Of a stretch of DNA of 64,000 nt, positions 1,182 through 15,135 are shown one piece after another. Origin of the DNA: Thioclava sediminum (GTDB lineage Bacteria; Pseudomonadota; Alphaproteobacteria; Rhodobacterales; Rhodobacteraceae); NCBI RefSeq assembly GCF_002020355.1, contig NZ_MPZV01000004.1:310001-374000 (forward strand), given 5' to 3'. The translations under genes were made by a program, and so were the position numbers. Every line of letters starts with the position of its first letter. Position 1 is the stretch's first letter. The notes beneath the pieces are model-generated. The model was not told the DNA's origin. It ran no database searches and saw only the letters and a program-made list of their open reading frames with translations.

Positions 1182-1233
1182 TGATGGTGAGCCGTGCAGG
1201 ATTCGAACCTGCGACCCACTGATTAAAAGTCAG
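1182..1233. repeat. Left attachment repeat (attL), tRNA-Lys 3' fragment
   Basis: These 52 bases match 15084-15135 exactly. They hold the 3' part of tRNA-Lys, from the anticodon stem-loop to CCA, plus three bases. To the right the sequence diverges, so no 5' half follows and this copy is not a functional tRNA. Confidence 0.93.
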
Positions 1234-1396
1234 AAGGTCCATACGCCAGACGATCAATCTCATGCATAAGCATCCGTTCTCAGCGCATATTACGCAAAGT
1301 TTGCGAAATACTTTTTCGCACAAAATCAAATACTTGCTTAATAGTGTCGCGTGATCTACATTCCTATCAGGACGGATCATTCCGGCGCAGGCACTT

Positions 1397-1414
1397 TGTC
1401 CCCCATATGTCCCC
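1397..1414. repeat. Putative integrase arm-type site (left)
   Basis: TGTCCCCCATATGTCCCC, itself two TGTCCCC boxes, recurs exactly at 15010-15027 near the other end. It lies inside the element 163 bp from the left core repeat. The position at both ends, next to the integrase, fits arm-type binding sites for the N-terminal domain of the recombinase. Confidence 0.6.
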
Positions 1415-1468
1415 TGCAAGGTCTGTTCTCCATTTGATCGAGGGGTAAGGTTGCGGGTGATAGGCGCG

Positions 1469-2704
1469 ATGAAAGTTCAGCTGACCGACGCACTAGTTCG
1501 AACAATCGAGAACCCGGCAAAAGGTCGAGCCGAAATCTCTGACACCGTCCGGCAGGGCCTTCGGTTGAGGGTCTATGACAACGGGCGGCGTGTTTGGATC
1601 TTCGAGAAGCGTGTGAAGGGGGGGAAGAAGCGGAAGCACACCCTGGGTGAATACCCCTCAGTCTCGATCAAGGAAGCGAGACGGCTCGCCCTAGAGATTG
1701 AAAATGAAGCGGCCAATGGGATCGATCGGGTTCTGGAGAGGAAGAAGCAGGCTGCGGAGAAGAAGGAGAGGGACCGGACAGCGAAAACTGTCGAGGAAGT
1801 CATTGACCTCTTCGTGGCGATCCACCTGGAAAAGTTGAGAACAGGAGTAACGGTAGAAAGGACGCTACGTGCAAGTTTCGCCGGTCGTCTTCATGAGAAA
1901 GCGATCGATTTGACCGAAGCAGACTTTCAATCGTTGATCGACGAGAAGGCTGCTTCCGGTGCTCAAGTGATGGCAAATCGGCTCAAGGCATATCTCTCAA
2001 AGTTCTCGAAGTTCGCATACAAGAGGAAGTTCTTTCACGACGACATCGGAAGGCATCTTGAGAAAGCCGTGCGCGAAGTGCCGCGGGAGCGCGTGCTGTC
2101 GCTTGCTGAGATGAGGAGTATTTGGGCGGCCACCTATTCTCTTTCGTCGCTCACGGGCCCTCTTATTAGGCTGCTGATGCTGACAGGCCAGCGCCGCACC
2201 GAAATTGCAGCCCTCCAATGGAGCGAGATTGACTTCGAACGCAAATGGATAGCGCTTAGCGGCGCGCGAATGAAGAATGGCAGCTGGCACATTACGCATC
2301 TTTCAGATGCCGCGCTGGCTGAAATTGCTATCCGACGCGAGTTGTCGACTGGGGACTTCGTCTTCTCTTCAACCGGGACAACCCCGGTTTCGGGCTTCAC
2401 CAAGATCAAAGCTGCTCTCTTGAAGCACTTGCCCGAGGATATGGAGCCTTGGACGTTTCACGACTTCAGGACCAGTTTTGGCACCCACATGGCCGAAAGG
2501 AAGGCGCCAGAGGCAATCGTCGACAGAATACTCAACCACGCAGCCTCAGGGTCGGCGCCGAGTGCTGTTGCGAGGATCTACAATCGTGCAGAGTTCCTCG
2601 AGGAAAGACGCGAAATCTTGGACGCATGGGCAGACGTGATAACCGGCGACGAAGCCGAGGGCGAAGTCATCGCCTTCTCTCCGAGGCGATTAGCTAGGGG
2701 ATGA
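1469..2704 (+). CDS. int: Tyrosine recombinase/integrase (DUF4102 N-terminal arm domain)
   Basis: Integrates and excises the element at tRNA-Lys. The first 90 residues (start MKVQLTDALVRTI) match the DUF4102 arm-binding domain of P4-type integrases; a SAM-like core-binding domain spans roughly 100-190; the catalytic domain follows. Catalytic residues can be seen: Arg in LTGQRRTEIAALQW, His and Arg in HDFRTSFGTH, His in NHAAS and the nucleophile Tyr in ARIYNRAEFLEERR, about 40 residues from the end. At 411 residues it has normal length. An in-frame TTG at 1451 after GAGGGG could add six residues; I prefer the ATG because the family usually begins there. Unlike many P4-type islands, the gene sits by the detached repeat rather than by the intact tRNA. 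Confidence 0.93.
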   Translation: MKVQLTDALVRTIENPAKGRAEISDTVRQGLRLRVYDNGRRVWIFEKRVKGGKKRKHTLGEYPSVSIKEARRLALEIENEAANGIDRVLERKKQAAEKKERDRTAKTVEEVIDLFVAIHLEKLRTGVTVERTLRASFAGRLHEKAIDLTEADFQSLIDEKAASGAQVMANRLKAYLSKFSKFAYKRKFFHDDIGRHLEKAVREVPRERVLSLAEMRSIWAATYSLSSLTGPLIRLLMLTGQRRTEIAALQWSEIDFERKWIALSGARMKNGSWHITHLSDAALAEIAIRRELSTGDFVFSSTGTTPVSGFTKIKAALLKHLPEDMEPWTFHDFRTSFGTHMAERKAPEAIVDRILNHAASGSAPSAVARIYNRAEFLEERREILDAWADVITGDEAEGEVIAFSPRRLARG

Positions 2705-2707
2705 GGT

Positions 2708-3100
2708 ATGGAGCACCATAGAGACGAAGACGAGCTGCGGAAAATGCTCCGCGCATTCCAAGCTGGGTTTCAAGCAGGCATCAACGTTCAAGGCACGTCA
2801 GCAAGTTTCGCCAAGAGGCGTGGTCGGCCGCGCGGGTCAAAATATTTGGGAGACATCGACCGCACTCGCGTGATGGCTCTCAACGCGGCAATGGGACTGC
2901 TGCTTGAAACAGGAAGTGACGAGGTGCTGGAAATGACCGATCCAAAGTTGATCGAGCATATCCGCAAGGTTTTCCCGGTAGGTGTGAGTTCCGAAGTCGA
3001 GATGCTTATCCATGATCTTATCTGCGTGCCGACTATCGAAACGGTGCTCGTTTCTGTGCGCAAGGGACGTGCGCGGATAAAGTGTATGAAAAAATCCTGA
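2708..3100 (+). CDS. Hypothetical protein with an AT-hook-like motif
   Basis: A 130-residue protein of no family I recognise, three bases after the integrase stop and preceded by GGGGATGAGG, so probably co-transcribed with int. The N-terminus is charged and helical, followed by a basic KRRGRPRGSK stretch resembling an AT-hook, which suggests DNA binding. The rest is mixed alpha/beta with a basic C-terminus. Position next to int suggests a role in recombination or element control, but that is inference. Confidence 0.6.
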   Translation: MEHHRDEDELRKMLRAFQAGFQAGINVQGTSASFAKRRGRPRGSKYLGDIDRTRVMALNAAMGLLLETGSDEVLEMTDPKLIEHIRKVFPVGVSSEVEMLIHDLICVPTIETVLVSVRKGRARIKCMKKS

Positions 3101-3173
3101 GAATTTAACCTACGCGACTGATCAGGTCAGCTAATTCAATCTCACCTCATAGCAACTGCTTAGAGGAAGAACC

Positions 3174-3368
3174 ATGATTGCGTATGATCCGCTGATCCGC
3201 GACCGCGAAGCTGCACAGATGCTCGGGGCGTCTGTCGCCACGTTCTGGCGTCGTGTCCAAGACGGAACGATTTCTCGCCCTATCAAGATTGGCGGCCTTA
3301 GCCGCTGGCGTGCGAGTGAAATTCAAGCGGTTATTGAAGCCGCAGAAGCGTCCCGAAATGCAGCATAA
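3174..3368 (+). CDS. AlpA/MerR-type helix-turn-helix regulator (excisionase-like)
   Basis: A 64-residue protein typical of the AlpA family: RDREAAQMLGASVATFWRRV forms the helix-turn-helix and GGLSRWRASEIQAVIE the wing. Such proteins in islands and P4-like elements act as transcription activators of int or as recombination directionality factors. The RBS AGAGGAAG lies upstream at good spacing. It is the best excisionase candidate in the element. Confidence 0.82.
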   Translation: MIAYDPLIRDREAAQMLGASVATFWRRVQDGTISRPIKIGGLSRWRASEIQAVIEAAEASRNAA

Positions 3369-3471
3369 GAAACCCCCGCTCAGTCAAAGACCGGGCGAGG
3401 GCGAAATTCTTTTCTGCGACACAGTTGAGAATAGCCATTCGGCACCGGTCCTTCAACAAAAAGGATCGAGC

Positions 3472-3828
3472 ATGACCCAGAGCAAAAAGGCCCCTCCGCG
3501 CCACGCAAAGCGAGTGAACTGTGTCGCGGATCTCCCCAAAGACCGTAGCCCGGCGTCCTTCGAGGTCATCAACGCGAACAGCAAGAGCCGCGTTGTAATC
3601 CTCGAGAAGCGCCGCCGTCAGATCCTTGAACTGCTAACGCTTGGCCCCGTTTATTGCGCCTCGCCTGTTCGGATTTCCGACATCGTATATGTGCTGAAGC
3701 GTGAAATCGGGCTCGAAGTGGATACCGAGTTCTATCCTGGTGACCGCGCAACGGGCGCTGGTGACTACGGTGTGTATTTCCTTCGCAGCCGGGTGCGCCG
3801 TCTCGACGGCCAGGAGGTGGCGGCATGA
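3472..3828 (+). CDS. Small winged-helix-type protein of phage origin
   Basis: A 118-residue protein starting MTQSKKAPPRHAKR with GGATCGAGC upstream. The central part (RRRQILELLTLGPVYCASPVRISDIVYVL) has the spacing of a winged helix, and the C-terminus (DYGVYFLRSRVRRL) would supply the wing. Similar small helix-turn-helix proteins occur in Rhodobacterales prophages ahead of replication genes. The in-frame extension upstream overlaps the AlpA-like gene and is unlikely to be translated. Function is not known. Confidence 0.6.
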   Translation: MTQSKKAPPRHAKRVNCVADLPKDRSPASFEVINANSKSRVVILEKRRRQILELLTLGPVYCASPVRISDIVYVLKREIGLEVDTEFYPGDRATGAGDYGVYFLRSRVRRLDGQEVAA

Positions 3829-3932
3829 CCTCAATTCGCCTTGCCCGTCTTCGTCGTCTGCTCGGCGTCTCTGGCCCGCTTTCTCACGATTTGGCCTCGA
3901 TGGTTTGGGGAGGCAATCGTGGCGAGAGATAA
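3825..3932 (+). CDS. Possible 35-residue small protein
   Basis: An ATG at 3825 overlaps the preceding TGA (ATGA) and opens a 35-codon frame starting MTSIRLARLRRLLG and ending GGNRGER. It follows GGAGGTGGCGGC, a strong RBS, and overlaps the next gene's start. It may be a real basic peptide or a translational bridge; composition alone cannot decide. Confidence 0.35.
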   Translation: MTSIRLARLRRLLGVSGPLSHDLASMVWGGNRGER

Positions 3933-4470
3933 GAAAAATGAACACCGGACAGAGCAGTTCACGAAGTGGGTCTATGCTCACCGACTGCTACCAGCTTGGA
4001 AGGCTCTGACCTTTCCGGCCCGTGATGCCTACTTCCATCTCGCGGTGCGCTGCATGGCGGAAACCGCAGACAAGAATGGCAAGGTCCGAAACAACAACGG
4101 AGAGGTCTTTCGGTCTCTCCGTGAGCTTTCCGAAGACATGGGCTGCACCACGAAGACCGCAGGCGCCGCGCTTGCGGATCTTCAAGCGAAAGGCTGGATC
4201 GTCTGCACTGATCCGTGGGTCCGAGGAATGGATGGCCATGGGAAGGCTGCAAAGTTTCGTCTAACCATGATGTCTTCGAAAGACCGTCCCCCGACCGTCG
4301 AGCCGAAGCGTTGGGAGCCTGGGCATGATTACCCGGTCTCGGTGTATCGTGGCTACATGCCGAAGCCGCGAAGATGGCGCGCTGAGAACCTTTCGAAAAA
4401 ACAAAACCCACCCCCCCATTCGGGCACGGTCGTGTATCCGAATGGGGCACAGTTGAGGGTCGCCAAATGA
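3919..4470 (+). CDS. Helix-turn-helix protein, possible replication/regulatory protein
   Basis: A 183-residue protein. The GTG at 3919 is chosen because GGGGAGG lies five bases upstream. Residues 10-60 (FTKWVYAHRLLPAWKALTFP, then ARDAYFHLAVR) and the segment RSLRELSEDMGCTTKTAGAA form a helix-turn-helix like those at the N-terminus of phage and plasmid replication proteins; a winged segment (LADLQAKGWIVCTD) follows. The C-terminal third is basic and proline-rich. A cluster of 19-bp repeats starts inside its 3' end, so it may bind these as an origin or operator factor. No helicase or primase motif is present. The function is inference. Confidence 0.6.
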   Translation: MARDKKNEHRTEQFTKWVYAHRLLPAWKALTFPARDAYFHLAVRCMAETADKNGKVRNNNGEVFRSLRELSEDMGCTTKTAGAALADLQAKGWIVCTDPWVRGMDGHGKAAKFRLTMMSSKDRPPTVEPKRWEPGHDYPVSVYRGYMPKPRRWRAENLSKKQNPPPHSGTVVYPNGAQLRVAK

Positions 4471-4538
4471 AAAAGTGTGACCGAATGGGATACGGATTTG
4501 CCCTGTTTTGCCGCTATCAGTGTGCCCGAATAGGGGAC
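4413..4538. repeat. Iteron-like repeat cluster (three direct copies, one inverted partial)
   Basis: Three direct 19-bp repeats fit GTGTNNCCGAATNGGRNAC at 4432-4450, 4475-4493 and 4520-4538, spaced 43 and 45 bp. An inverted partial copy (GTGCCCGAATGG on the minus strand) lies at 4418-4429. The spacing of about four helical turns and the position between a helix-turn-helix gene and a terminase-like gene fit a replication origin, a packaging (pac/cos) recognition site or an operator. Confidence 0.65.
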
Positions 4539-4612
4539 ATATCTAATAGCCATCTCCTGAGAGAACTGCGCAGCCCACATGGCACCGCCCAAACTTTGGT
4601 GGAGGCTGTTCG

Positions 4613-5032
4613 ATGACCCGAAAAAGCGGACGAAATGCGGATGGCACTTTCGCAGAAGGCAATCCCGGCAAGCCTCGTGGCACCCGGCATCGGGTCACCC
4701 GTGCGGTTCTCGACCTGCTCGACGGTGAGGCCGAGAAGCTGACCGGGAAAGCCGTCGAGATGGCGCTGGGCGGTGATGCTACCGCGCTTCGGCTCTGCCT
4801 TGAGCGGATAGCGCCTCCCCGCAAGGACGCACCAGTGCAATTCGAGCTGCCCGCCATGGACGGGGCGGAGGATGCTGCAAAGGCGGCTAGTGCTGTCTTG
4901 GGGGCGGTCGCATCGGGCGAGCTGACCCCGACCGAGGGCGCGCATGTAATGGCTTTGATCGAGGCCTACCGACGCACACTCGAAACCACCGATATCGAAA
5001 AACGGCTGAGAGAATTGGAGGCGCAGAAATGA
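4613..5032 (+). CDS. DUF5681 phage protein (small-terminase-like)
   Basis: A 139-residue protein whose N-terminus, RNADGTFAEGNPGKPRGTRH, is the DUF5681 signature found in phage and prophage proteins near terminase genes. A helical body rich in Ala and Leu follows, with an acidic-basic C-terminus (DIEKRLRELEAQK) able to form a coiled coil. The RBS is GGTGGAGG. By context it may act as a DNA-recognition subunit for packaging. No large terminase is present in the element, so it would need one from a helper phage. The terminase link is family context, not direct evidence. Confidence 0.72.
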   Translation: MTRKSGRNADGTFAEGNPGKPRGTRHRVTRAVLDLLDGEAEKLTGKAVEMALGGDATALRLCLERIAPPRKDAPVQFELPAMDGAEDAAKAASAVLGAVASGELTPTEGAHVMALIEAYRRTLETTDIEKRLRELEAQK

Positions 5033-5292
5033 GCCTGAAACGCAGGATTGAGCAACTGGAGCATAGAGCAGGTAGCGCCGCAACGGACGGGCCTACCACC
5101 ATCTTGATCAGAAGCGTGACACGCAATGAAGCCGGGGAACTCGTCTCGGCCCCGGCATACGCAATCTTTCTCGGCTTCCCAGGACAGCTGCGCGCGCTGG
5201 AAGGCGAAACCGAGGACCAGTTCAGCGCCCGCGCAGAGAAGCGACTGGCAGAACTCAAAGCGGCAGGAAGCGCCGAGCAGAAAGGACAGTGA
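5029..5292 (+). CDS. Small conserved phage-type protein
   Basis: An 87-residue protein starting MSLKRRIEQLEHR, with an ATGA overlap to the DUF5681 gene, so translationally coupled. A short N-terminal coiled coil precedes a beta-rich part (TILIRSVTRNEAGEL) and an acidic-basic helical end (TEDQFSARAEKRLAEL). I do not recognise a defined domain. Coupling to the terminase-like gene suggests a joint role in packaging or DNA binding. Confidence 0.6.
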   Translation: MSLKRRIEQLEHRAGSAATDGPTTILIRSVTRNEAGELVSAPAYAIFLGFPGQLRALEGETEDQFSARAEKRLAELKAAGSAEQKGQ

Positions 5293-5293
5293 A

Positions 5294-5659
5294 ATGTTTA
5301 TGCAGAGACAGCGAGATCAGATTTCGCAGACGACCCCGCAGCTGTTGCGGGCTCGACAGATGTTGTTGGGAATGATGCAGCCCAACAATGGACAGGTCGA
5401 AAACGCTGACCAAGGCCCCGCGCAAACTGGATTTGGAGCCAGCGCCAGCCTTCCGGGCAACGGGAACGGTTCGCAGATAGACGGTTGGCGAAGTGAAGAT
5501 ACTACGCCTGACCTCTCGCAACTTGCGATGATCGGCAGCACGGGTCGCAACCATGGCGCTATCGCGATGGCCGAGAACCCGATGAAGTATGGCTGGGGCC
5601 CTTTCTACGATCAGCTTCAACAGATTCAACCAGGTCAGAGAAGTTCCCTCGGTCGCTGA
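5294..5659 (+). CDS. Hypothetical phage-type protein
   Basis: A 121-residue, Gln/Asn/Gly-rich protein starting at ATG 5294, one base after the preceding stop. The N-terminus (RDQISQTTPQLLRARQMLL) is helical and the middle is low complexity (GASASLPGNGNGS). No known domain is apparent. It stands between the terminase-like gene and the ejection-like gene, the place where small virion or head-completion proteins occur, but its function is not known. Confidence 0.5.
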   Translation: MFMQRQRDQISQTTPQLLRARQMLLGMMQPNNGQVENADQGPAQTGFGASASLPGNGNGSQIDGWRSEDTTPDLSQLAMIGSTGRNHGAIAMAENPMKYGWGPFYDQLQQIQPGQRSSLGR

Positions 5660-5687: not shown

Positions 5688-7550
5688 ATGGCTACCTATC
5701 GAGAATTGATGGACGCAGCCCGCCGCGCTGATGCGGCTGGGGACTGGTCTGGGGCAAAGCGATTCCTTGAACTTGCGAGAGAAGCCCAGCGGTCAGGCAA
5801 TTCAGCTGGGCCGACTGCGCAGGGAGGCGACCTGATCCAAGTTCAAAGCACGGATGGAACCACCTTCCAATTCCCTGCCGGAACGGATCGTGCCACGATG
5901 AAAGGCGCATTGCAGAACCACTATTCCAAGCAGACGGATACGCCCCCGATCACGCTCGATTTTGGCGGCACGAAAGTGGAGGTGGATAGCTCTTTCCGAG
6001 ACCTTCCGGCTGACCGGCAAAACCGGATCGTGGACGAAATCGCACTACGGCTGAAAAACGGGACGCTCTCAGGCAACGCCAATCCTGCAACGGAACAAAA
6101 TCCGGGGCTTTGGCAAGCCCTGAAAGACAACGTGTTCGGCGACAACGATCCGAACAGCCAGAACTTCGGCGAGAAAGTTGGCTCCGCACTGAACAAGGCA
6201 GGCGAGGCGATGACGTTTGGCCTGATCGGTGATGAGGCTGGTGCTGCAGCAGATGCTGCGCTCGGTATCGGCAGCTACGACAACCGTCTGCAGCATTATC
6301 GCCAGCAAGAGCACGTCCTGCAGCGAGATAACCCCAAGACGGCGCTGGGCGCAGAGCTTGGCGGCGCTGTGCTTGGCGCTATGGCCCCAGGTGGCGCTAT
6401 CGGCACCCTTGGGCGTGGGGCGGGCCTCTTGCCTCGCCTTGCCGCTTCTACCGCGACCGGTGCGGCCATGGGCGGCACCTACGGTTTCATGGAAGGCGAA
6501 GGCGGTTTCGACAATCGGATGAGTGACGCGAAAACCGGAGCAAAGGTCGGTGCGGCTGTTGGCTTCGCAGCCCCTGTCGTGGGGCGTGGAGTGCAGAAAC
6601 TCGCAGACGGGCACGCGGCACGCCAAGCGATCACGAAAGCCATCAAAGGCGCTCCGAGCAGCGAGGCGCTCAGGGCAGAGGGGCGCGCGGCTTATGACGC
6701 CATCGACAGGGCCAACGTCCAGATCCAACCGCAGGCATTCGATCGAACCCGTCAGAGGATTCTCAACATGCTGCGCCAGAATACCGGCTTCGATGAATTG
6801 CCCGGTCCGGGGAGTCTCACCCCGAACTCTGCACGCGCGATGGAGATCATGCGACAGGCTGGTGACCGCATGGCAAAAGAGCCAACCGCCGCGTTGCCCT
6901 TCAAGAGCCTTGACCAGATGCGCCGTCAGGCAGGCGCTGCAGCAGGCAACTTCGCCAACAAGACAGACCAGAAGGCCGGGATGGAGATCATCAGCGGCTT
7001 GGATGACCTCGTGAAAAATCTGGCGCCTGGGGATGTGGTTTCCGGCGACGTTCAGGCGCTGAAAACCCTTATCCCGAAAGCCAGGGATGTTTGGTCGCGA
7101 ATGTCAAAAAGCCAGATGATCGATGACGCAATCGAGGCAGGGCAGAACAACTACCTGTCCGGTGGCGCCAGCGGCATCCGCAACCAGTTCAAACGCATCC
7201 TGAGCAACAAGAAGCTGGCGGCCAAGTTCACTGAGGCGGAGAAGGCGGCGATGCGGAAGGTGGTCAACGGTTCGATGGGCAGCCAAATCATGAACCTTCT
7301 GGGTGGCGGGCTCGGCCAACTCGGGCAAATCGGCGCTGGCTTCGGCCTTGGCGGGCCTGCTGGCGCTGCCGCAGGCGCTGTCACTGGCAGCTTGGCCCGA
7401 AGGGGATCGGAGGTCATAGCGTCGCGCAACGCTGAGATTGCACGAGCAATGGTCGCGAACGGAAAGCTGAACAGGCTTCCCGTCGCAAGCGAGTCGAGCA
7501 GGCGTGCAATTGAGGCGCTGATGCGGAGAGGGGCTGCACCGGCCAACTGA
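5688..7550 (+). CDS. Putative virion ejection/internal virion protein
   Basis: A 620-residue protein, start at ATG 5688 after GAAAGGAAAG. The N-terminus has short linkers seen in alphaproteobacterial phage ejection or structural proteins: LMDAARRADAAGDWSGAKR, then TFQFPAGTDRATMKGAL and VEVDSSFRDLPADRQNRIV. Residues about 195-290 and the C-terminal region (GGGLGQLGQIGAGFGLGG) are Gly/Ala-rich amphipathic or membrane-active segments, as in proteins that line the DNA-ejection channel of podoviruses. The central part is helical. No lytic transglycosylase motif is clear. It is the longest gene in the element and the only one resembling a structural protein. The role is inferred from composition and context. 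Confidence 0.55.
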   Translation: MATYRELMDAARRADAAGDWSGAKRFLELAREAQRSGNSAGPTAQGGDLIQVQSTDGTTFQFPAGTDRATMKGALQNHYSKQTDTPPITLDFGGTKVEVDSSFRDLPADRQNRIVDEIALRLKNGTLSGNANPATEQNPGLWQALKDNVFGDNDPNSQNFGEKVGSALNKAGEAMTFGLIGDEAGAAADAALGIGSYDNRLQHYRQQEHVLQRDNPKTALGAELGGAVLGAMAPGGAIGTLGRGAGLLPRLAASTATGAAMGGTYGFMEGEGGFDNRMSDAKTGAKVGAAVGFAAPVVGRGVQKLADGHAARQAITKAIKGAPSSEALRAEGRAAYDAIDRANVQIQPQAFDRTRQRILNMLRQNTGFDELPGPGSLTPNSARAMEIMRQAGDRMAKEPTAALPFKSLDQMRRQAGAAAGNFANKTDQKAGMEIISGLDDLVKNLAPGDVVSGDVQALKTLIPKARDVWSRMSKSQMIDDAIEAGQNNYLSGGASGIRNQFKRILSNKKLAAKFTEAEKAAMRKVVNGSMGSQIMNLLGGGLGQLGQIGAGFGLGGPAGAAAGAVTGSLARRGSEVIASRNAEIARAMVANGKLNRLPVASESSRRAIEALMRRGAAPAN

Positions 7551-7704: not shown

Positions 7705-8025
7705 TTATCGGTCCACTTCTGCGACATGGCTTACCGAAGCAGTTTGAGATAGGACCCAATCTGCTTCTCTTTCTTTCCGCGCCATGAATTCCCGGCGCTT
7801 CTCAAGCCGCAGAATTGTAACCTTGTTCTGATAGATGCCTCGCAGCCCCGCGAAGAGCGCCAGTCCCGCGAAGCCTTCGAATGCGCTTACGTGGGAAAAA
7901 TCGCGATACCCGGACATCCAGGCGAACAACGCGCTGGCTGCCAAGATGGCGAGAGGTAACCAGTCACGTTCGCGCTCAGTTTTCTTGATCGCGTCGGTGA
8001 GGCCAAAATCGTCGTCGTCCTTCAC
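7705..8025 (-). CDS. Small membrane protein
   Basis: A 106-residue protein from a GTG at 8025 with AAAGGAA six bases upstream. The N-terminus is acidic (MKDDDDFGL). Two hydrophobic segments (WLPLAILAASALFAWMSG and FEGFAGLALFAGLRGIY) are predicted membrane helices, and a charged helical tail (RLEKRREFMARKEREADW) follows. It is the last gene of a leftward group of four. Function unknown; small membrane proteins in this position of prophages often affect host entry or exclusion, which here is only a possibility. Confidence 0.6.
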   Translation of the reverse strand: MKDDDDFGLTDAIKKTERERDWLPLAILAASALFAWMSGYRDFSHVSAFEGFAGLALFAGLRGIYQNKVTILRLEKRREFMARKEREADWVLSQTASVSHVAEVDR

Positions 8026-8141: not shown

Positions 8142-8639
8142 TCAATTCCACGGAATAGGATGGTCTTTGACTTTGGCTAGAATTTCGTCCGTGAGCGTCA
8201 AGATGGCCCCTTTGATTACCTCATCAGAATTTTGCGGATCTGTCGTAGAAATTAACTCTTGAATCGTATGACGGTTGTATTCTCGACCGAAGCCAATCTT
8301 AAATTTCTCACCCTCAACCTCGATCACTAGAGGGCGACTCTCCATTCTATATCCATCTGACTTTCGGGCGAATGAACAGCAAGTTGCGGACGCGATGGCG
8401 CGAGCATTTACGGGCATGTCTTCGCTGAAATCGTCTTGAATTTTCAAGTCTAAGTCATTTTTCCGCAGGCTCGCTCGTGCGGAAAGCAACGTTGGAAGCG
8501 CGAATTCTTTCAATAGAGATATCGCCGAAGCTACGGCGTCCTGCTTTTTCAGCCGCGCCGCTTCGGCCTGCTTCTCTCGCTCCGCTTGCTCGTTATCAAA
8601 AGCTTTTCGGCGTTCCTGTAAGCGCTTTTCGAAATCCAT
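8142..8639 (-). CDS. Hypothetical protein with N-terminal coiled coil
   Basis: A 165-residue protein starting MDFEKRLQERRKAF. The first 40 residues are highly charged and form a likely coiled coil; the rest is mixed and ends in a helical segment (EVIKGAILTLTDEILAKV). The gene is noticeably richer in A+T than the flanking chromosome, as expected for transferred DNA. No family recognised. Confidence 0.6.
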   Translation of the reverse strand: MDFEKRLQERRKAFDNEQAEREKQAEAARLKKQDAVASAISLLKEFALPTLLSARASLRKNDLDLKIQDDFSEDMPVNARAIASATCCSFARKSDGYRMESRPLVIEVEGEKFKIGFGREYNRHTIQELISTTDPQNSDEVIKGAILTLTDEILAKVKDHPIPWN

Positions 8640-8819: not shown

Positions 8820-9356
8820 TTAGTCCTCAATCGCGACCTTGTTGCTGAGCAATGCTCCTCGACAGGTCAAGACTGGCGCGAATGAACCATCCTCATCGTC
8901 CAAGAAAACCATTTCCAGAACAAACTTTTTGTCGAGCTCTTTGATCGCTTCTGTATCCGGCACGCCATCGACCGTAGTCTCGAAGCCAGCGTGAAGGAAG
9001 AGCTCAGCAAACCGGCTCGTTCCGGTCGAACTGAACGGGCTTCCGGTTTCGGGATCCACAAAAGCGAACCGGCGCATTCCGAATATCCACACGCGACAAA
9101 GACGCTCGTTTTCTTCTACACTTTGGCTGTCGAATGGAGCGTGTCGCGTGACCTTAATCGCATCAGCGTCCCAATCATAAGCTACGTTAGGATAGCCACT
9201 CGGCATCTGCTCAAGAACTTCTCGCTGAAGTTTGTAGATGCCGAAATCCATCATGGATGCTGGTTGACTCAGAAACCGCTTGGATGTGGCGTCTGGTCCT
9301 GCGATGGCTGGGCTAGCCAGTGAAATCAAGAGTGCGAAAAGAACGGTGCGTCTCAT
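8820..9356 (-). CDS. Putative secreted protein
   Basis: A 178-residue protein with a clear Sec signal peptide (RRTVLFALLISLASPAIAGP, cleavage after AIA). The mature part has no domain I recognise and one or two cysteines. Its start overlaps the stop of the XRE repressor gene (ATGA), so it is translated together with the repressor from the lysogeny-type promoter and is probably expressed in the integrated state, like lysogenic-conversion genes. Confidence 0.65.
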   Translation of the reverse strand: MRRTVLFALLISLASPAIAGPDATSKRFLSQPASMMDFGIYKLQREVLEQMPSGYPNVAYDWDADAIKVTRHAPFDSQSVEENERLCRVWIFGMRRFAFVDPETGSPFSSTGTSRFAELFLHAGFETTVDGVPDTEAIKELDKKFVLEMVFLDDEDGSFAPVLTCRGALLSNKVAIED

Positions 9357-9601
9357 CCTGTGTGGCCCCCATCCGCTCGGACTGTGACGCCTGAACCGTC
9401 CGCAACTTGCCCGCTTTCGAGAAACTGGATTCCGTGTTCCTCAAGCGCCTTTCTGATCGCTTCCGCTGTAGAGTGCTGAAGGCCGCTTTTGCCCGTCTCA
9501 AAGCGGCTGATCGTCGTGAACGACACCCCCGCGATTTCCGCCAATTCTCGCACGCCAAGCTGTAGTGCTGCGCGCGCCATTCTTACCTGCTCCGGCCTCA
9601 T
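9353..9601 (-). CDS. XRE-family repressor
   Basis: An 82-residue protein with a Cro/C1 helix-turn-helix: MRPEQVRMARAALQLGVREL, then AEIAGVSFTTISRFETGKSG. It resembles the short XRE regulators found in Rhodobacterales elements (an EQVRMARALL-type start and a C-terminal LEEHGIQFLE). The ATG at 9601 is preferred, with AAGG eight bases upstream; ATGs at 9607 and 9619 are possible. It faces away from the rightward block and likely represses the divergent promoter through the dyad at 9629-9658. Confidence 0.85.
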   Translation of the reverse strand: MRPEQVRMARAALQLGVRELAEIAGVSFTTISRFETGKSGLQHSTAEAIRKALEEHGIQFLESGQVADGSGVTVRADGGHTG

Positions 9602-9628
9602 TTGCATACCTTGTTGCATATTTCGCTA

Positions 9629-9705: not shown

Positions 9706-10326
9706 ATGACCTACGACCGCGCTGCCATCATGAGAGCCGCCTGGGTGATTGTTCGCCGCTTTAAGGGGCGCACTCACGAAACGCTTTCTCAGCTCCTGTC
9801 CCGGGCCCTCAAGCTCGCATGGTCGGACGCAAAGCAAGAGGCTCAGGTCGCCAAGGTGGTCGCTGCGAAGCGCGCCGAGGCTGACGCCCTCGCCCAACGC
9901 TCCAGCGCGGATCTCTTGGCGGAAATTGTGACCCTCGAAAACGCCGGCGTGTTGGGTGGCGCTGGGCGTGCCCGTCTCTCAGAACTGCAAGCTGCTCTCT
10001 GCAAGGCAGAGACACGCGAGGCTGCAGACTACATCGAGAAGCGCAAGCTGATCGCGAGCGCCAAAGGCCGCTTCGCCTCGATCACCTTCATCAAGAAAGA
10101 CGGCACGCGCCGTGTGATGTGGGTCCAGCCCGCCACGCTACGCCAGCATACCAAAGGCGCCGAGGCCTCCGATGCTGGCCGGAGAGCCGCTGAGACGCGC
10201 GCCCAGCGCCATCCCAACCTTCTTCCGGTTTGGGATGCCGAGAAGAAGGCGCCTCGCTCTGTGAACCTCGCGACCGTCAGCCAGATCAAGGTGAACGGTG
10301 TTACCCATGAATTTCGCGCCTGCTGA
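9706..10326 (+). CDS. Phage-type protein with SH3-like C-terminus, unknown function
   Basis: A 206-residue protein starting MTYDRAAIMRAAWVIVRR. The N-terminal stretch LSQLLSRALKLAWSDAK matches a motif (leucine-rich helix ending LKxAWxxAK) widespread in phage and plasmid proteins. A helical middle is followed by a beta-rich C-terminus (FASITFIKKDGTRRVMWVQP, ending KVNGVTHEF). It is the first gene after the switch promoter and so the first expressed on induction. It may be an early regulator or DNA-metabolism protein; I cannot assign a function. Confidence 0.6.
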   Translation: MTYDRAAIMRAAWVIVRRFKGRTHETLSQLLSRALKLAWSDAKQEAQVAKVVAAKRAEADALAQRSSADLLAEIVTLENAGVLGGAGRARLSELQAALCKAETREAADYIEKRKLIASAKGRFASITFIKKDGTRRVMWVQPATLRQHTKGAEASDAGRRAAETRAQRHPNLLPVWDAEKKAPRSVNLATVSQIKVNGVTHEFRAC

Positions 10327-10370: not shown

Positions 10371-11174
10371 ATGCCGATGGACTTCCAGCTGAAATCCCCT
10401 AGTTACGCTGCTGACGCCGGGACCAAAACTGAAATTGGACGCCGTAGCCTTCTTCTGGCTCTCGCAGCAGGCGCTACCGCCGCAGCCGCGATGAAAGGCT
10501 CCAAGGCGGAGGCGCAAACGCAAGAAGACCCGGAACTACTAACTTTGGCAGATGCTCTGCCAGTTCTCGAACGTGATTATCTGGAAGCTTTGGCAACGAG
10601 GCAGGATATCGTTGACCGGTTCGCTCCAACTTGGCCCCGCGCGCCCCAGCAAATTTATCGCTATGGGAACCAATGCACCGAAGAGCGCGGCGTCGATGGG
10701 TTGGCGTTCGCGCACCCCGAAGACAGCAAGTCTGGTGTGCCGGGCGCCTTGATCAGTGTGGGAAAGCCTGAGCACTTCGAGGCCGACATCCGCTACAACA
10801 AAGAGCGCATTGCCCACATCATGAAAACCAAGAGCAAACGTGGGCTGAAATTCCACGAAACTTGGGTTGCTCGTTCCGAGGAGGCGCTGCCCCTTGCAAA
10901 AACCTACTGGGCGGATCTGGAAAAGGCGAAATCCGCATCCGGTATCGATGACGCCAACGGAAGGCTTGCCGCCGTCCGAGAGGCGCTTCACGCTCACGTG
11001 GATCAGATCATGCGCTTCCAGGAGAAGACGATGCAGGGCCTCGTGATCAAGGCTCAGGCCATGACCGCTTGGGGCAAGGTCGAGCCCTTCCAACGCGCTT
11101 TCAACATCCAGGCTAACGATTGGGCTGACGCGATGGCTGCAACCGTCATGCGCCAAGCCCAACTTTCAGCCTAA
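10371..11174 (+). CDS. Exported protein with Tat-type signal, unknown function
   Basis: A 267-residue protein, RBS GGAGAG. The N-terminus contains a twin-arginine signal: GRRSLLLALAAGATAAAA, with the arginine pair before a hydrophobic stretch and AEA-type cleavage near residue 45. The mature part is helical, with LEALATRQDIVDRFAPTWP and C-terminal segments resembling a bundle. No catalytic motif recognised. A Tat-exported protein in a phage-derived element is unusual and suggests cargo serving the host or the lysogen. Confidence 0.65.
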   Translation: MPMDFQLKSPSYAADAGTKTEIGRRSLLLALAAGATAAAAMKGSKAEAQTQEDPELLTLADALPVLERDYLEALATRQDIVDRFAPTWPRAPQQIYRYGNQCTEERGVDGLAFAHPEDSKSGVPGALISVGKPEHFEADIRYNKERIAHIMKTKSKRGLKFHETWVARSEEALPLAKTYWADLEKAKSASGIDDANGRLAAVREALHAHVDQIMRFQEKTMQGLVIKAQAMTAWGKVEPFQRAFNIQANDWADAMAATVMRQAQLSA

Positions 11175-11238: not shown

Positions 11239-11751
11239 ATGAACGTGCCTTACAGCATCAATCGACAGTGGTCCGACCAATACCTGCCTGAGATACGGCG
11301 GATAGTTGGCGCTCACTTGCTGCAGGTCGCGCCGGATCACCTCGATCGACACCACGCGACAGACTTGCTGATGCTGGATGGCCGTGACCTACGGATTGCC
11401 GCACGGGTCCGGCGCCCTGGCTACGCCTCCCGCTACCCCTATGAGTTCACGATCCGCTCGCAAGTAGCATCAGGCGCCATGACGGAGTTGGCGAAGATTG
11501 TGAATGGCGAGGGCGACTGGCTGTTCTACGGCCACGCCAGCGAAGACGGCTGCGGGCTGGATCTGTGGTGGCTCATCGACCTGCGGGCGTTCAGGGCAGC
11601 ACTTATCCGGCGCAGCGCAAATGGCTTTCCTATCCGGTGTGGAGACAAGGCCAACGCTGACGGCACTTGCTTCAAGTGGTTCGACATTCGGTCTTTCCCG
11701 AATGACCCACCGCTCGTCGTAGCGAGCAGTGGACACCGACTGGTAATGTAA
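11239..11751 (+). CDS. Phage-type hypothetical protein, possible nuclease fold
   Basis: A 170-residue protein starting MNVPYSINRQWSDQYLPEI. The order of segments (ATDLLMLDGRDLRIAARVRR, then TIRSQ, then WLFYGHASEDG) recalls phage proteins with a PD-(D/E)xK-like arrangement, but the catalytic lysine is not certain. Related small proteins occur near phage replication genes. I give it no function. Confidence 0.5.
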   Translation: MNVPYSINRQWSDQYLPEIRRIVGAHLLQVAPDHLDRHHATDLLMLDGRDLRIAARVRRPGYASRYPYEFTIRSQVASGAMTELAKIVNGEGDWLFYGHASEDGCGLDLWWLIDLRAFRAALIRRSANGFPIRCGDKANADGTCFKWFDIRSFPNDPPLVVASSGHRLVM

Positions 11752-11849
11752 CATCCAGCTCGCATCTCGAGAGAAGACGCTCACGGCGGTGGAAATCACG
11801 AGGGCAAGAGCGTATATATATGCGCAGTTGATTTATGTAGGTCAAAGCT

Positions 11850-12275
11850 ATGCCCAGCGCCAGAGACGTTGCTCAGTTCATTCTCGACGGATGTGGACCG
11901 ATGACAACGATGAAGCTGCAGAAGCTCGTTTACTATTCTCAAGCGTGGTCGACCGTTTGGGACGACGATGTCATTTTTGATGAGCAAATCGAAGCTTGGA
12001 AAAATGGGCCCGTTGTCCGTGACCTCTGGGAAGCGACGCGCGGCAGGTTTCGCGTTGATGACATACCGGGAGGCGATGCCTCCAAGCTTTCGGATGTTCA
12101 AGCCGATACCGTCAAACGTGTGATTGAATTTTACGGCGAGAAAGACGCTCAGTGGCTCAGCGACCTGACGCACATGGAGCAACCTTGGCAAGACGCAATG
12201 GCACAAGGGCAAAATACGCCGATTGAGCCCGCGTCTCTCTCTGAATTTTATTCGAGCATTGCCCCACAGGTCTAA
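11850..12275 (+). CDS. Panacea-domain (PanA, DUF4065) antitoxin
   Basis: A 141-residue protein of the DUF4065/SocA-like Panacea family. The signature is present: MTTMKLQKLVYYSQAW, then EQIEAWKNGPVVRDLW and a C-terminal helical part with WLSDLTHMEQPWQDA. PanA domains are established as antitoxins that neutralise many unrelated toxins encoded next to them (PanAT systems). The downstream gene overlaps its 3' end, as expected of a toxin-antitoxin operon. An A/T-rich stretch before the gene (GTATATATATG) may hold the promoter. Confidence 0.85.
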   Translation: MPSARDVAQFILDGCGPMTTMKLQKLVYYSQAWSTVWDDDVIFDEQIEAWKNGPVVRDLWEATRGRFRVDDIPGGDASKLSDVQADTVKRVIEFYGEKDAQWLSDLTHMEQPWQDAMAQGQNTPIEPASLSEFYSSIAPQV

Positions 12276-12789
12276 AAAACAAGCTCGTATCGAGCGAAAG
12301 ACTGCTGCCAAATTGGCTGCAAAGGAAAAGTCTGCGCGACTGGTTGAACGAGTCCAGGAGAAGCTCCCGCAAGCGAGAACGCCGCGTGCGGGCGCAGACC
12401 CGAACTCCATCTACAGTATGAAGATGCGATGGTCCCGCGAAGGTGCTGACTGTGAAGGCACTTGGAGCTGGGGGGTGGATCGTGACTGCCTGAATAAATC
12501 ATGGGATTCTGAAATCGTTCAAAAGCTTGAGGAGTGGTCAAATCTCACCTGGGGAGAGATTGATAGCCATTCTTCGGAGAGTGGACACAAGATGCACCAC
12601 AACATGAGTTCGAATGACGTCTGTGACGAAGCGCAGGCCCGCCTCATCGAGATAGAGCGATATGCGAACAGTTTGTTCCGTTTCCGGCTGGGCGGAAAGC
12701 CACGCCTTTGGGGCGAACGAAATGTCGATAAATTCGAGATTCTTTGGTTCGATCCGACACATAGTGTTTACCCTGTGGGCGACGATTGA
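12223..12789 (+). CDS. Putative PanA-neutralised toxin
   Basis: The frame opens at TTG 12223 inside the panA 3' end; another TTG at 12259 is possible, and either gives 176-188 residues. The N-terminus is strongly basic (HRSKKQARIERKTAAKLAAK), suggesting RNA or ribosome contact. The C-terminus (FRFRLGGKPRLWG, then FEILWFDPTHSVYP) has the pattern of small RNase-type toxins whose last strands read R-G-x-R-L-W and ILW-DP-H-VYP. I infer a toxin from operon position and this resemblance; the exact family is not recognised. Confidence 0.5.
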   Translation: MSPRLSLNFIRALPHRSKKQARIERKTAAKLAAKEKSARLVERVQEKLPQARTPRAGADPNSIYSMKMRWSREGADCEGTWSWGVDRDCLNKSWDSEIVQKLEEWSNLTWGEIDSHSSESGHKMHHNMSSNDVCDEAQARLIEIERYANSLFRFRLGGKPRLWGERNVDKFEILWFDPTHSVYPVGDD

Positions 12790-13369
12790 TCTTTGATCGG
12801 CACAGGTTCGGGGAGGTTTATACCATTTTTCTTTTGGAAGCCCGGGCCGTTTCCGACTGAGCCACCACTGATCGTGGCATCGACGCGACGTCGTTGCCCC
12901 CTTGCAATCGATTGTAAGCTGCGCTGCTTCTATTGGCGCGAGCACTGGTCGGCGAGCGATATGGCTCCTCCCCCGAGTTTACGAGCCATACGGAATTGCG
13001 TGAAAAGCTACTGTTTGGTGGGCTACTGCAACCATCAGCGGCTTCAGCCTTTCTAGCTAGTAAGTTCCTCAAGCAAGTTGCTCCGGCTTTGCTTGAGAGG
13101 TTGGGGGGCAATCAAGAGTGGATCAAGAAAGTTTCTGACAACTTCTTGTAGCAGATCACTCCGATTGCCCAACCTATTGGGGTTTTCTAGCCTGCCGCTC
13201 GGCAAGGTAGGGATGGGCGTAAAGACTGAATCAAGAAAAAATTGAAACTCCAGTAAGCCATAAGTGCATGAAGGTGCTCAAAATTTTCTTGTTGCCACCT
13301 TTCGTTTGGCCCAATGAATCAAGAGTGGGTCAAGAGTCCATCGCATCCAGTTAAAAGGTCATAGTTGGC
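12790..13369. other. Intergenic stretch with a near-identical 19-bp direct repeat and a possible gene remnant
   Basis: About 580 bp without a convincing gene. A frame at 12933-13151 encodes a plausible 72-residue peptide (SHTELREKLLFGGLLQP, then ASKFLKQVAPALLERLGG) but lacks a good start and may be a degraded 3' fragment. AATCAAGAGTGGATCAAGA at 13110-13128 recurs with one change at 13317-13335. No terminator with a clear T tract is seen. Confidence 0.4.
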
Positions 13370-14824
13370 CTAAGCCCACCAAGGGTAGTAGCCCGCCCTA
13401 GGATGCTCAGCGTCAGCAACTTTGATGAGCTCCAACTCAAGTGCTTTTCGGATTACGCCAGAGGCTTGGGCGGCGTTCTTGGCATCGATGCCAAAGCGAG
13501 CGCACAGCGTGTTATTCCGCATCCTTTCGCCCCCCATGAACTGTAGGACCGCGTGAAAGTAACAAGCTCGGACACGCTCTTCAGCGCTCATTTCTGCAAA
13601 TCGCCTCGGCCCGTATAAAACGACTTGCATAGAGCTATCACCGGCTTTCAGAAGCGGCGCTGGCAGCTGGCACACCTCCACCTCTTTGAACACCTTATCA
13701 AGCCCGCTCCCTTGCTCTTCGCACATACCCATACGCCGCATAAGAGAAGCCATTGCTTCGTTGCGTGAACGTGGGGGCTGATCGATCATACGTTCCGTTT
13801 CCATCAACGGACGCCCTGGGTTCGTAATCTCGATCCTGTCTTCGAATAGTTCTATCTGCGGGCCTGCGCCGGAGATGGTCATATCTTGATGGATCAGAGC
13901 ATTCGCGACCAGCTCGCGTATCGAGAGAGTGGGGAAAAGAGGTTGAGCGACACGGAGCGCTTGCCCAATGTGTTCGTTTTGCGGAAGCAGGCCATTTATA
14001 AACTCGAGAAGGTTTTCGAAGCCAACAGCGTATCCCCTCTTACCATCACGCCTGTGGCTCACCGTAGCGGTGCGGTCGGAGCCCGCATATCGGACGAACC
14101 TTACCCCCTTCCGCGCTAAGCTTGTTTCAAACTCGTCCAGATCAGACGCGAACAAGATGGCGCCGAGATTGAGGATGTTCCAGCGGCCTCCGACATCGGC
14201 CTGGATAAGCTTATCAGATTGCAGCTTGGACAGAATCGCTTCGTCGTTGGTTGGGACAGATTGCCCGGTGAGCCTGAAATAGGAAGCAAAGTCTATCAGC
14301 TTCAGAACGTCTGACGCAGGCACGTAAGTCGCTGCTATGCCATGCTCCCAAGTATAGGGCCTCATTTTCTCAATGAGAGCTTGGTATCTGGCAGGATCGT
14401 CGGTCAACTTAGGTGTCGTGCTTCCGACGCGAACATAGGAAACGCTCTCAAACGCTGTTGGCGCCATAGTCGGAGCCGGGATTTCGAGAAGAACCAGCTT
14501 GCCCTCCGGGTGATCCACGGAACGAAATTTGAGCACTGGCGCTGGGCTGAGCCTTTGTCGCAGCCATAGTTCGAAAGGTTGCGCGCCAACCGTCTTGGTG
14601 AATGGATTGAACTTGGTGCCAACGACGTCATGCGTGCCGTCCTCAACGCCCCAGACCAGAAACGCATTTTCTTTCCCCTCGAGGCGCGCAGCGTTTGAAA
14701 GGGCAGAGATGAGTTTTCCTATGCGGTTTTCGTCACCCAAGTTCTCTTTGAACTCAAGCCAAGCTGTCTCCGTAGCTTGAGAGCGAAGTTCGTCTATCAA
14801 ATCAATGTCGCGCTGAGGATCCAC
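13370..14824 (-). CDS. AlbA_2 (Schlafen-type) DNA-binding and ATP-binding protein
   Basis: A 484-residue protein. The GTG at 14824 is chosen because GAAGGGA lies five bases upstream; an upstream TTG gives a less likely extension. Residues 10-130 form the AlbA_2/Schlafen domain (ETAWLEFKENLGDENRIGKL, then ENAFLVWGVEDG). The middle holds the HATPase_c_4-type region (LSIRELVANALIHQDM, then QIELFEDRIEITNPG), and a C-terminal winged helix follows (FGIDAKNAAQASGVIRKAL). Proteins of this architecture are common in mobile elements and defense islands and are usually called transcriptional regulators, though some Schlafen relatives are nucleases. It is transcribed toward the toxin-antitoxin pair from the right end. 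Likely cargo; the exact activity is not known. Confidence 0.8.
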   Translation of the reverse strand: MDPQRDIDLIDELRSQATETAWLEFKENLGDENRIGKLISALSNAARLEGKENAFLVWGVEDGTHDVVGTKFNPFTKTVGAQPFELWLRQRLSPAPVLKFRSVDHPEGKLVLLEIPAPTMAPTAFESVSYVRVGSTTPKLTDDPARYQALIEKMRPYTWEHGIAATYVPASDVLKLIDFASYFRLTGQSVPTNDEAILSKLQSDKLIQADVGGRWNILNLGAILFASDLDEFETSLARKGVRFVRYAGSDRTATVSHRRDGKRGYAVGFENLLEFINGLLPQNEHIGQALRVAQPLFPTLSIRELVANALIHQDMTISGAGPQIELFEDRIEITNPGRPLMETERMIDQPPRSRNEAMASLMRRMGMCEEQGSGLDKVFKEVEVCQLPAPLLKAGDSSMQVVLYGPRRFAEMSAEERVRACYFHAVLQFMGGERMRNNTLCARFGIDAKNAAQASGVIRKALELELIKVADAEHPRAGYYPWWA

Positions 14825-15009
14825 TTGTTCCCTTCTCCGAAGACGCCAAAACGTTCCCTGCCGAGTAAACGCTGCTCCAAGCAAGGGGCTCGAAACGCAG
14901 TTCGAAGCCTCAGTTTCGGGATAGCTGCATCTCGATCAGAATCAAAGTGCCGGATCGAACAGCTTGAGAGAGTAATGAGGTGAATTGGGTGGAGAAGGGC
15001 GGAGCGAAT

Positions 15010-15038
15010 TGTCCCCCATATGTCCCCCAGCGGGGGAC
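15010..15038. repeat. Putative integrase arm-type sites (right)
   Basis: TGTCCCCCATATGTCCCC (15010-15027) matches the left copy exactly, and GTCCCCC AGC GGGGGAC (15022-15038) adds an inverted box. This lies 45 bp inside the right core repeat. Confidence 0.6.
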
Positions 15039-15040
15039 TT

Positions 15041-15078
15041 AAAATTCAAAGGGCTCAGCCTTTTAAGGCTAAGCCCTT
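15041..15078 (-). terminator. Element-borne terminator for tRNA-Lys
   Basis: A 12-bp stem (AAGGGCTCAGCC / GGCTAAGCCCTT, one G-T pair) with loop TTTTAA, followed in the minus direction by TTTGAATTTT. It lies just downstream of tRNA-Lys and inside the element, so it supplies the terminator that insertion separated from the tRNA. Confidence 0.7.
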
Positions 15079-15083
15079 GAGAA

Positions 15084-15135
15084 TGATGGTGAGCCGTGCA
15101 GGATTCGAACCTGCGACCCACTGATTAAAAGTCAG
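15084..15135. repeat. Right attachment repeat (attR) within tRNA-Lys
   Basis: Exact copy of 1182-1233, covering tRNA-Lys from the anticodon stem to CCA and three bases beyond. Recombination between the repeats would excise a circle of 13,902 bp and leave one intact tRNA. Confidence 0.93.

Follow-up and report, generated by a model that had tools for sequence, protein, structure and literature searches.

A tRNA-Lys-integrated element of Thioclava sediminum and its relatives in Rhodobacteraceae as candidate phage satellites with podovirus-type ejection protein homologues

The stretch of DNA analysed here (hereafter, the window) comprises 64,000 nucleotides of Thioclava sediminum (assembly GCF_002020355.1, contig NZ_MPZV01000004.1, positions 310,001 to 374,000) and contains an integrated element of 13.9 kb, which spans positions 1182-15135 between perfect 52-bp direct repeats corresponding to the 3' end of a tRNA-Lys gene. 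No further matching bases were found on either side of the repeat, and the element showed a GC content of 56.2%, compared with 65.2% for the rest of the window. The integrase gene adjoins the partial tRNA copy, at the opposite end from the intact tRNA-Lys; ARAGORN also predicted a 72-base tRNA at this partial copy (1185-1256), of which the 3' part alone is common with tRNA-Lys. The right flank was then used as query in 16 genomes of the same genus, the host genome among them. An exact empty attachment site (attB) was found in four of the other 15 (L279, L280, L282, and L283; L and G numbers denote our loci and genomes), where the flanks overlap by exactly 52 bp; apart from G580 (see below), the remaining genomes were uninformative, as the left flank was unrecognisable past the tRNA end. 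Because of these empty sites, the unit of about 13.9 kb proposed in the preliminary description of this DNA stands beyond chance, as a discrete tRNA-Lys insertion whose exact empty site occurs elsewhere in the genus.

The same tRNA-Lys is occupied by a different element in another genome of the genus, G580, in which a 48-bp copy of the attachment (att) site lies about 40 kb away. The intervening DNA (L300-L302, G580:C1:178001-222500) is a podovirus-like prophage of about 40 kb, in which gene prediction and PHROGs comparison identified large terminase (4.3e-10), head-tail adaptor, major head protein, tail, and tail-fibre genes. This prophage is a candidate competitor or helper type. In addition, loci L066 and L067, from other genera, lie near a tRNA-Lys accompanied by the host genes that neighbour the element in the window (15269 and 16102), perhaps through reuse of the integration site. 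Regarding the ends of the element, TGTCCCC was discarded as a rare motif (6 occurrences observed, 6.6 expected), leaving the 19-bp repeat of Table 1 to stand alone, and end repeats were discarded as a family-wide feature, since a shared end repeat of 10-19 bp was present in only 6 of 15 units.

The genes of the element follow a defined order, in which a block running from the integrase to a 620-aa protein is followed by a convergent group of three genes of unassigned function plus an XRE-type regulator, then by a divergent block from a WYL_2-like gene to a SocA gene and, last and on the opposite strand, by an AlbA_2/HATPase gene. The integrase and the XRE switch that had been described from the sequence were both recovered by family searches (Table 1). 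So was the reported lack of virion genes: no match to portal, capsid, tail-tube, lysis, or large terminase families was obtained with Pfam and PHROGs among the scanned element proteins, some small open reading frames (ORFs) being scanned by Pfam only and that at 5294-5659 by neither.

The 620-aa protein, previously noted as ejection-like, is, judging from its sequence, a homologue of podovirus-type ejection (injection) proteins, with significant homology along its core. By tblastn it matched six of 50,697 phage records, the best of them phiGT1 (E 6e-77, in two pieces, 58% covered), whose corresponding product is annotated as "putative internal virion protein/injection protein" and is encoded after a second internal virion/injection gene with a muramidase-like domain. 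Core identities by blastp were 54-55% with phiGT1, 50% with EBPR podovirus 2, and 46% with the podovirus-like prophage L020, and a match to phrog_5880 was also obtained (2e-21). The phage phiGT1 is in turn reported as weakly similar to the ejection proteins of P22 (PMC10386132). Thus, the label "ejection" derives from the phiGT1 homology, the gene order, and the annotation rather than from a solved structure. The start at 5688 was preferred because a longer ORF from 5589 overlaps the 121-aa ORF that precedes it. A first contig scan with this protein as query gave no match; a search of 292 genomes in the order recovered it in 16, counting that of the host.

The DUF5681-like protein encoded upstream is likely a small-terminase-type DNA-recognition protein, because canonical DUF5681 genes directly precede a large terminase gene in five of six cases tested. 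These canonical genes were detected in 33 of 149 genomes of the order (E up to 1e-8), and the cases tested were drawn from 30 loci (L248-L277); in the sixth, L274, a tandem DUF5681 copy precedes and the gene tested was not a large terminase. On the upstream side, a ParB/DNA-methyltransferase protein was found in three of three cases, and tandem DUF5681 copies occur. Close relatives of the window protein were very rare in phages (1 of 50,697 records, E up to 1) and occurred in 8 of 72,556 plasmid records, two of the latter, from Roseomonas plasmids, being annotated as terminase small subunit, and a close relative in L173 reached 29.8 bits, above the DUF5681 cut-off. A search of BFVD with the predicted model yielded one nameless match (4.5e-4) and weak matches of DUF5681 or phBC6A51 type. 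For the small-terminase-like gene of the preliminary description, that role is the most plausible guess; its DUF5681 match is weak and under the Pfam cut-off. Two contigs with relatives of this protein deserve separate mention. In the viral contig L090 (4274-8487), a close relative has a large terminase gene about 2.8 kb downstream, truncated where the contig ends; this may be a capsid-forming or phage version. In the 8.7-kb faecal contig L167 (MT836812.1), a relative with 52% identity shares the contig with genes for tail tube, neck, and tape measure located further on, which may be the siphovirus equivalent of the ejection module.

The assignments concerning regulation and replication survived in part. 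The AlpA-like regulator matched a PHROG family of excisionases and regulators, but its score against Pfam AlpA was 18 bits, under the cut-off of 21. The O-like and HTH_36 (helix-turn-helix) matches of the putative replication initiator came from the ORF read from 3841; read from 3919, it gave no PHROG match at 1e-5. As for the iteron-like repeats, a local cluster of CCGAATGGG was confirmed, but across the whole window copies with one mismatch numbered 23 versus 27 expected, which is not above chance, so that the iteron-like reading draws on the local cluster only.

Table 1. Features of the tRNA-Lys element in the window (window coordinates; values are E-values unless stated otherwise).
Feature	Position	Strand	Evidence or remark
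Left att copy	1182..1233	.	52 bp, tRNA-Lys 3' end; perfect repeat with 15084-15135; flanks overlap in empty sites
19-bp perfect repeat TTGTCCCCCATATGTCCCC	1396..1414	+	Possible integrase arm site; second copy at 15009-15027
Tyrosine integrase	1457..2704 (ORF open from 1451)	+	PF00589 1.3e-22; PF13356 (Arm-DNA-bind_3) 2.6e-17; phrog_1 1.3e-53
130-aa protein, function unassigned	2708..3100	+	ORF; no Pfam or PHROG family match
AlpA/excisionase-like HTH protein	3174..3368	+	phrog_66 (excisionase and regulator) 1.7e-8; HTH_17 9.5e-6 and AlpA 0.0027, below cut-offs
118-aa core gene	3472..3828	+	Present in 13 of 26 element loci clustered
Replication-initiator-like protein	3919..4470	+	Weak: PHROG replication initiation O-like 5.2e-4, HTH_36 6.4e-5
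Iteron-like cluster	4415..4534	.	CCGAATGGG: three exact copies at 4415-4489 and one 1-mismatch copy at 4526
DUF5681-like protein, probable small-terminase-type DNA-recognition protein	4613..5032	+	Pfam 1.4e-4, below cut-off
87-aa small protein	5029..5292	+	Common to L023 and L061
121-aa ORF	5294..5659	+	No relatives in local protein set
620-aa ejection (internal virion/injection) protein homologue	5688..7550	+	
106-aa accessory protein	7705..8025	-	No Pfam or PADLOC match
165-aa accessory protein	8142..8639	-	No Pfam or PADLOC match
178-aa accessory protein	8820..9356	-	No Pfam or PADLOC match
XRE-type regulator	9353..9619 (gene prediction: start 9580)	-	HTH_3 1.4e-6; 86% identity with L029
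WYL_2-like protein, divergent from XRE	9706..10326	+	PF10902 9.4e-5, below cut-off; 10 of 26 clustered element loci
267-aa protein	10371..11174	+	Common to L024 and L030; putative twin-arginine-like start, by eye
170-aa core gene	11239..11751	+	61-93% identity with counterparts in six other aligned elements
SocA/Panacea antitoxin-type protein	11850..12275	+	PF13274 4.2e-16
Possible partner of 11850-12275	12223..12789 (gene prediction: start 12475)	+	Weak PADLOC NsnC 5.5e-6; no Pfam match
AlbA_2/Schlafen and HATPase_c_4 protein (cargo)	13370..14824	-	Pfam scan of 13370-14884
19-bp repeat, second copy	15009..15027	+	Partner of 1396-1414
Right att copy	15084..15135	.	Mostly within tRNA-Lys; perfect repeat
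Intact tRNA-Lys (TTT)	15087..15162	-	

Among the remaining genes, the 170-aa core gene had 29 relatives in IMG/VR contigs (L304-L332) and none in the 50,697 phage records. The gene preceding the relative encodes an MT-A70 methyltransferase in both viral contigs tested (L304 and L313), and the core gene may be a restriction or anti-restriction part. The SocA/Panacea gene and the ORF overlapping it (11850-12789) are possible toxin-antitoxin or defence cargo.

Relatives of the DUF5681-like protein were found in 33 of 394 genomes of the family Rhodobacteraceae (host genome included) and in 142 of 356 candidate GTDB stretches. A set of 79 loci was retained, mostly from Rhodobacterales (Ruegeria, Roseovarius, Marivita, Thalassovita, Sulfitobacter, Paracoccus, and others), and their gene maps revealed a common plan across many genera. 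Several loci are truncated, either at a contig end or at the limit of the stretch retrieved. Direct repeats of 14-52 bp linked to a tRNA, with the second copy more than 2.5 kb away, were detected in 18 of 40 loci scanned, bounding units of about 4.6 to 16.5 kb at ten tRNA types (Lys, Leu, Thr, Ser, His, Phe, Met, Asn, Arg, and Pro); three of these repeats, of 14 bp, are weak, the scan was run without a shuffled control, and many loci lacking a repeat had no tRNA in the fetched stretch. Two further loci were bounded as well, L227 (tRNA-Met, 50 bp) and L175 (tRNA-Ala, 21 bp). Copies at other tRNAs, differing in their cargo, thus occur across Rhodobacteraceae. The smallest member, L058 (5175-9835), is a minimal 4.6-kb unit in tRNA-Leu with integrase, AlpA, repO, DUF5681, and small ORFs, and genome G426 showed three DUF5681 matches (L074, L075, and L078). 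Loci L083, L084, L085, and L086 form a second subfamily, with a distant DUF5681 protein (31-33% identity over the alignment), shared genes c13-c15, and att repeats of 46-50 bp in Met, Asn, Arg, and Pro tRNAs.

For the count of the family, 18 second copies were removed by hand and 50 of 105 loci were retained because they spanned no less than 9 kb and contained an integrase plus a gene of the AlpA or 3472 type; L061, whose copy is without the integrase end, fell outside the 50. Members of the family have an integrase, an AlpA-type regulator, replication genes (of primase/helicase type in relatives of the element), and in most cases a DUF5681-like gene; ejection genes occur in over half of the loci counted. 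Podovirus-type ejection genes, from one to three, were present in 29 of the 50, of which 25 were recognised with a hidden Markov model of the ejection protein and four by a two-gene pair only (L064, L192, L212, and L239), a 64-aa fragment in L236 not being counted. Once the window and the five loci found through the ejection protein alone (L025 and L027-L030) were excluded, the figure was 23 of 44. The first member of the pair is related to proteins encoded directly before the ejection gene in podovirus loci; the query set used for it ("IVP1") contained the gene of L061 itself, so the pair-only loci depend on the match of that gene to podovirus proteins. The ejection genes were co-directional with the nearest DUF5681 or AlpA gene in all 29 loci, with no opposing gene in between in 26 of them (the others being L024, L173, and L176). 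Eight of the 29 lie in units bounded by tRNA repeats (the window, L024, L027, L028, L029, L030, L175, and L227), that of L029 by a weak 14-bp repeat only.

A single podovirus structural-type gene without the rest, together with the podovirus-like prophage of 40 kb that occupies this tRNA-Lys in G580, could also suggest that the element is what a deletion left of a podovirus prophage. The family loci speak against it. None of the 50 matched the podovirus references TERL, PORTAL, MCP, TTA, or TTB (blastp, 1e-4), and the preliminary description had itself named a full prophage around the same block as the finding that would undo it; no satellite-marked locus showed a podovirus terminase, portal, capsid, or tail-tube match, the only matches being those of L205 and L246 to two other reference proteins, labelled HEAD and SC. 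Because these references are podoviral, a PHROG scan of bounded units was added (1e-5; 37 proteins of at least 170 aa from six ejection-bearing units). It returned 24 families, the named ones related to replication or integrase; it left out the integrase, AlpA, XRE, DUF5681, and ejection clusters, and took 37 of 43 listed proteins, omitting six that come from L063, a locus devoid of ejection genes. In addition, the same gene plan recurs in many genera at tRNA sites of their own, and the ejection genes show purifying selection and include a clade of eight found in satellites only (see below). A deletion remnant is thus largely refuted and, in our view, highly improbable. Large non-core genes were also considered as tail spikes and rejected: the 807-aa protein of L060 is a hybrid histidine kinase, and the 575- and 529-aa proteins of L023 are of LuxR/hydrolase type and a BCCT transporter, so these genes were taken as cargo.

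Related elements agree in backbone blocks but differ in other modules. Between the window and L029, from the same genus, DNA identity was 86% in the XRE-WYL region (1007 bp), 85% in the 170-aa gene (521 bp), and 80% in the 118-aa gene (516 bp), whereas the ejection genes could not be aligned as DNA (the proteins being 25-26% identical), the integrases were 22% identical, and the replication genes differ. Some members carry more than one ejection-type gene, three in L173 and two in L176, L183, L191, L202, L205, and L224, and in the cassette of L069 the ejection protein is accompanied by a phrog_4287 "DNA ejection protein" (1.2e-15) and a protein of VanY/tape-measure type. A quick maximum-likelihood tree was built with 74 ejection proteins, 54 from phages and 20 from satellites, omitting 16 listed loci (near-duplicates, matches with E above 1e-40, short domains, and loci with neither marker). 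On this tree the satellite/phage label changes at least nine times, five of them forced by well-supported (starred) branches, so that the tree, as reconstructed from these sequences, requires repeated switching between satellites and podoviruses. The window protein grouped with nine phage proteins (set of ten, 98*), with the viral contig L093 as nearest neighbour (66% over 499 columns), and eight satellite proteins formed a clade of their own (99*).

The ejection genes also bear the mark of strong purifying selection, with a ratio of nonsynonymous to synonymous substitution rates (dN/dS) of about 0.06 in both close pairs, L194-L209 (dN 0.039, dS 0.616) and L173-L176 (dN 0.083, dS 1.46); in three other pairs dS was saturated or very large. 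For the 118-aa core gene compared with L029, dN was 0.118 and dS 0.941. The ratios in the measurable pairs indicate that the ejection genes are maintained and not decaying, and the ejection module is a selected, exchangeable part of many family members. Alternatively, the ejection-like protein of a satellite could be a weapon, that is, a faulty or competing component that enters helper procapsids or the membrane and spoils the helper progeny or blocks superinfection. Satellites are reported to interfere with their helpers (PMC6092414), and the island EcCIMP1 of E. coli confers superinfection immunity through an unidentified factor (PMC11773190). Several satellite proteins, moreover, have longer and more variable N-termini than their phage homologues. 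However, their core shows clear conservation, with purifying selection in two pairs, and the two- or three-gene cassettes of some members exceed the needs of a decoy, which makes a weapon unlikely, although the least so among the alternatives considered.

Our preferred explanation, to which we would assign a probability of about 0.7, is that the element is an integrated phage satellite with a layout like that of phage-inducible chromosomal islands (PICIs), whose ejection protein refits hijacked podovirus particles. We infer that a helper phage mobilises it. Growth of a podovirus with a phiGT1/P22-like virion would allow the XRE/AlpA switch to permit excision, and the excised element would replicate from its RepO/iteron origin. 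The DUF5681 protein would then mark the element DNA for the large terminase of the helper, and the satellite ejection protein would join the hijacked particle, replacing the helper homologue or beside it. Finally, the DNA would be delivered by an ejection machinery of the satellite's choosing and would integrate at the tRNA-Lys of the recipient. The element is about one-third as long as the 40-kb genome of phiGT1, a ratio that would fit small heads or three tandem copies.

Several observations weigh against this explanation. Excision, induction, and packaging are predicted here from the gene content, and no podovirus prophage was found in the host genome, which showed no second ejection gene and no Terminase_3 or Terminase_6C match (other terminase families were unsearched); its one large terminase (TerL; phrog_9) has adjoining ORFs that look siphovirus-like by eye. 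On the side of the proteins, phrog_5880 is listed as "unknown function" in PHROGs, the DUF5681 match of the window protein scored 22.8 bits against a Pfam (PF18932) cut-off of 27.5, and its predicted fold (predicted local distance difference test score, pLDDT, 79.7; predicted template modelling score, pTM, 0.48) had no PDB match, the best E being 0.72. On the side of the family, no ejection gene was recognised in 21 of the 50 loci or in any of five IMG/VR contigs found through DUF5681, DUF5681 matches were missing from four ejection-bearing loci (L027, L028, L029, and L030), and in 21 of the 29 loci with ejection genes the boundaries of the element are undefined. The ejection genes of L173 and L176 are separated from DUF5681 by 5.7-6.4 kb that includes opposing genes, and might belong to a neighbour. 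In addition, shuffled labels required 17.8 changes on average and none of 500 shuffles was as low as nine, so the satellite/phage label is clustered by descent; the tree method is quick, with several long branches and unsure single placements. The pair of DUF5681 and ejection genes that had been put forward as a distinct type holds as a combination found in many members without capsid genes, but it is not obligate.

The loci without a recognised ejection gene and the lack of a detected podovirus helper in the host genome would also suit a genomic island that relies on its integrase, contains phage-derived cargo, and travels through general transduction or the conjugation of other elements and not as a specific satellite. 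We regard such an island as improbable, given that the packaging-type and ejection genes lie in line with the replication genes, that the phage kin of the ejection genes in the fetched loci are podoviruses, and that EcCIMP1 provides a precedent. Beyond the explanation of the element as a satellite refitting podovirus particles, a broader proposal can be put forward tentatively, with the balance slightly on the side of doubt: that these elements form a class of alphaproteobacterial satellites characterised by an ejection module that can be exchanged, in which DUF5681 captures the packaging of the helper while an ejectosome of the satellite's own is matched to changing helpers or recipients. Known satellites redirect packaging, capsid size, or tails; the exchangeable ejection protein carried by this family suggests that DNA delivery, too, is contested by satellites. 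This would give a function to DUF5681 and to "unknown" genes in marine bacteria, would explain islands easily mistaken for broken prophages, and would make matching ejection genes a handle for predicting which podoviruses help which satellites.

Regarding known systems, the P4 core genes are psu, delta, sid, and the alpha primase, and these names were absent from the Pfam and PHROG tables of the window proteins, no dedicated P4 profile search having been run. Gram-negative PICIs such as EcCICFT073 are described as elements of about 15 kb with integrase and alpA at one end, a replication module, and a small terminase (TerS) in some (PMC6092414). The window element resembles them in its size (13.9 kb), in having the integrase followed by the AlpA regulator at one end, and in the replication module that comes after the regulator (the weak O-like initiator and the iteron-like cluster). 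It differs in having a DUF5681-type protein in place of a known TerS, in its ejection protein homologue, whereas the absence of structural and lytic genes is a criterion stated for Gram-positive PICIs, and in its att site, which is also used by the G580 prophage, whereas a prophage-free att site is another such criterion (both PMC6092414). With capsid-forming PICIs (cfPICIs) it shares the possession of some virion-type genes of its own (PMC11389934), but unlike them it has no capsid, portal, or TerL detected by Pfam or PHROGs. The podovirus phiGT1 (MT584811) encodes the related ejection-protein core in gp19, there within a full virion gene set. No description of such elements in Rhodobacterales was found in the literature searched, which covers few subscription papers, nor did "phage satellite" together with "ejection protein" retrieve a related paper within the same coverage; the word "satellite" is absent from two Rhodobacteraceae papers (PMC8224337 and PMC13386836).

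The closest precedent comes from E. coli MP1, and it involves Kapi1, which like P22 is a podovirus. EcCIMP1 is described as a tRNA-Thr PICI that excises with, and is transduced by, Kapi1, a close relative of P22, and its genes similar to DNA transfer proteins are noted (PMC11773190). By phmmer, its ejection protein and transglycosylase gave no match in the family, and its 225-aa protein weakly matched two viral contigs. EcCIMP1 is longer than the window element, at 20 kb, and its authors recognised no terminase gene in it (PMC11773190). It resembles the family, however, in its tRNA site and in its order of integrase, AlpA, and primase followed by DUF2824, "phage DNA ejection protein", and lytic transglycosylase genes, without capsid genes, the last two products being so named in its RefSeq annotation (NZ_CP139039). 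The suggestion that a satellite bearing ejection genes would be a type of its own consequently has to be revised: such a satellite is not wholly new, as EcCIMP1 already carries genes of this kind.

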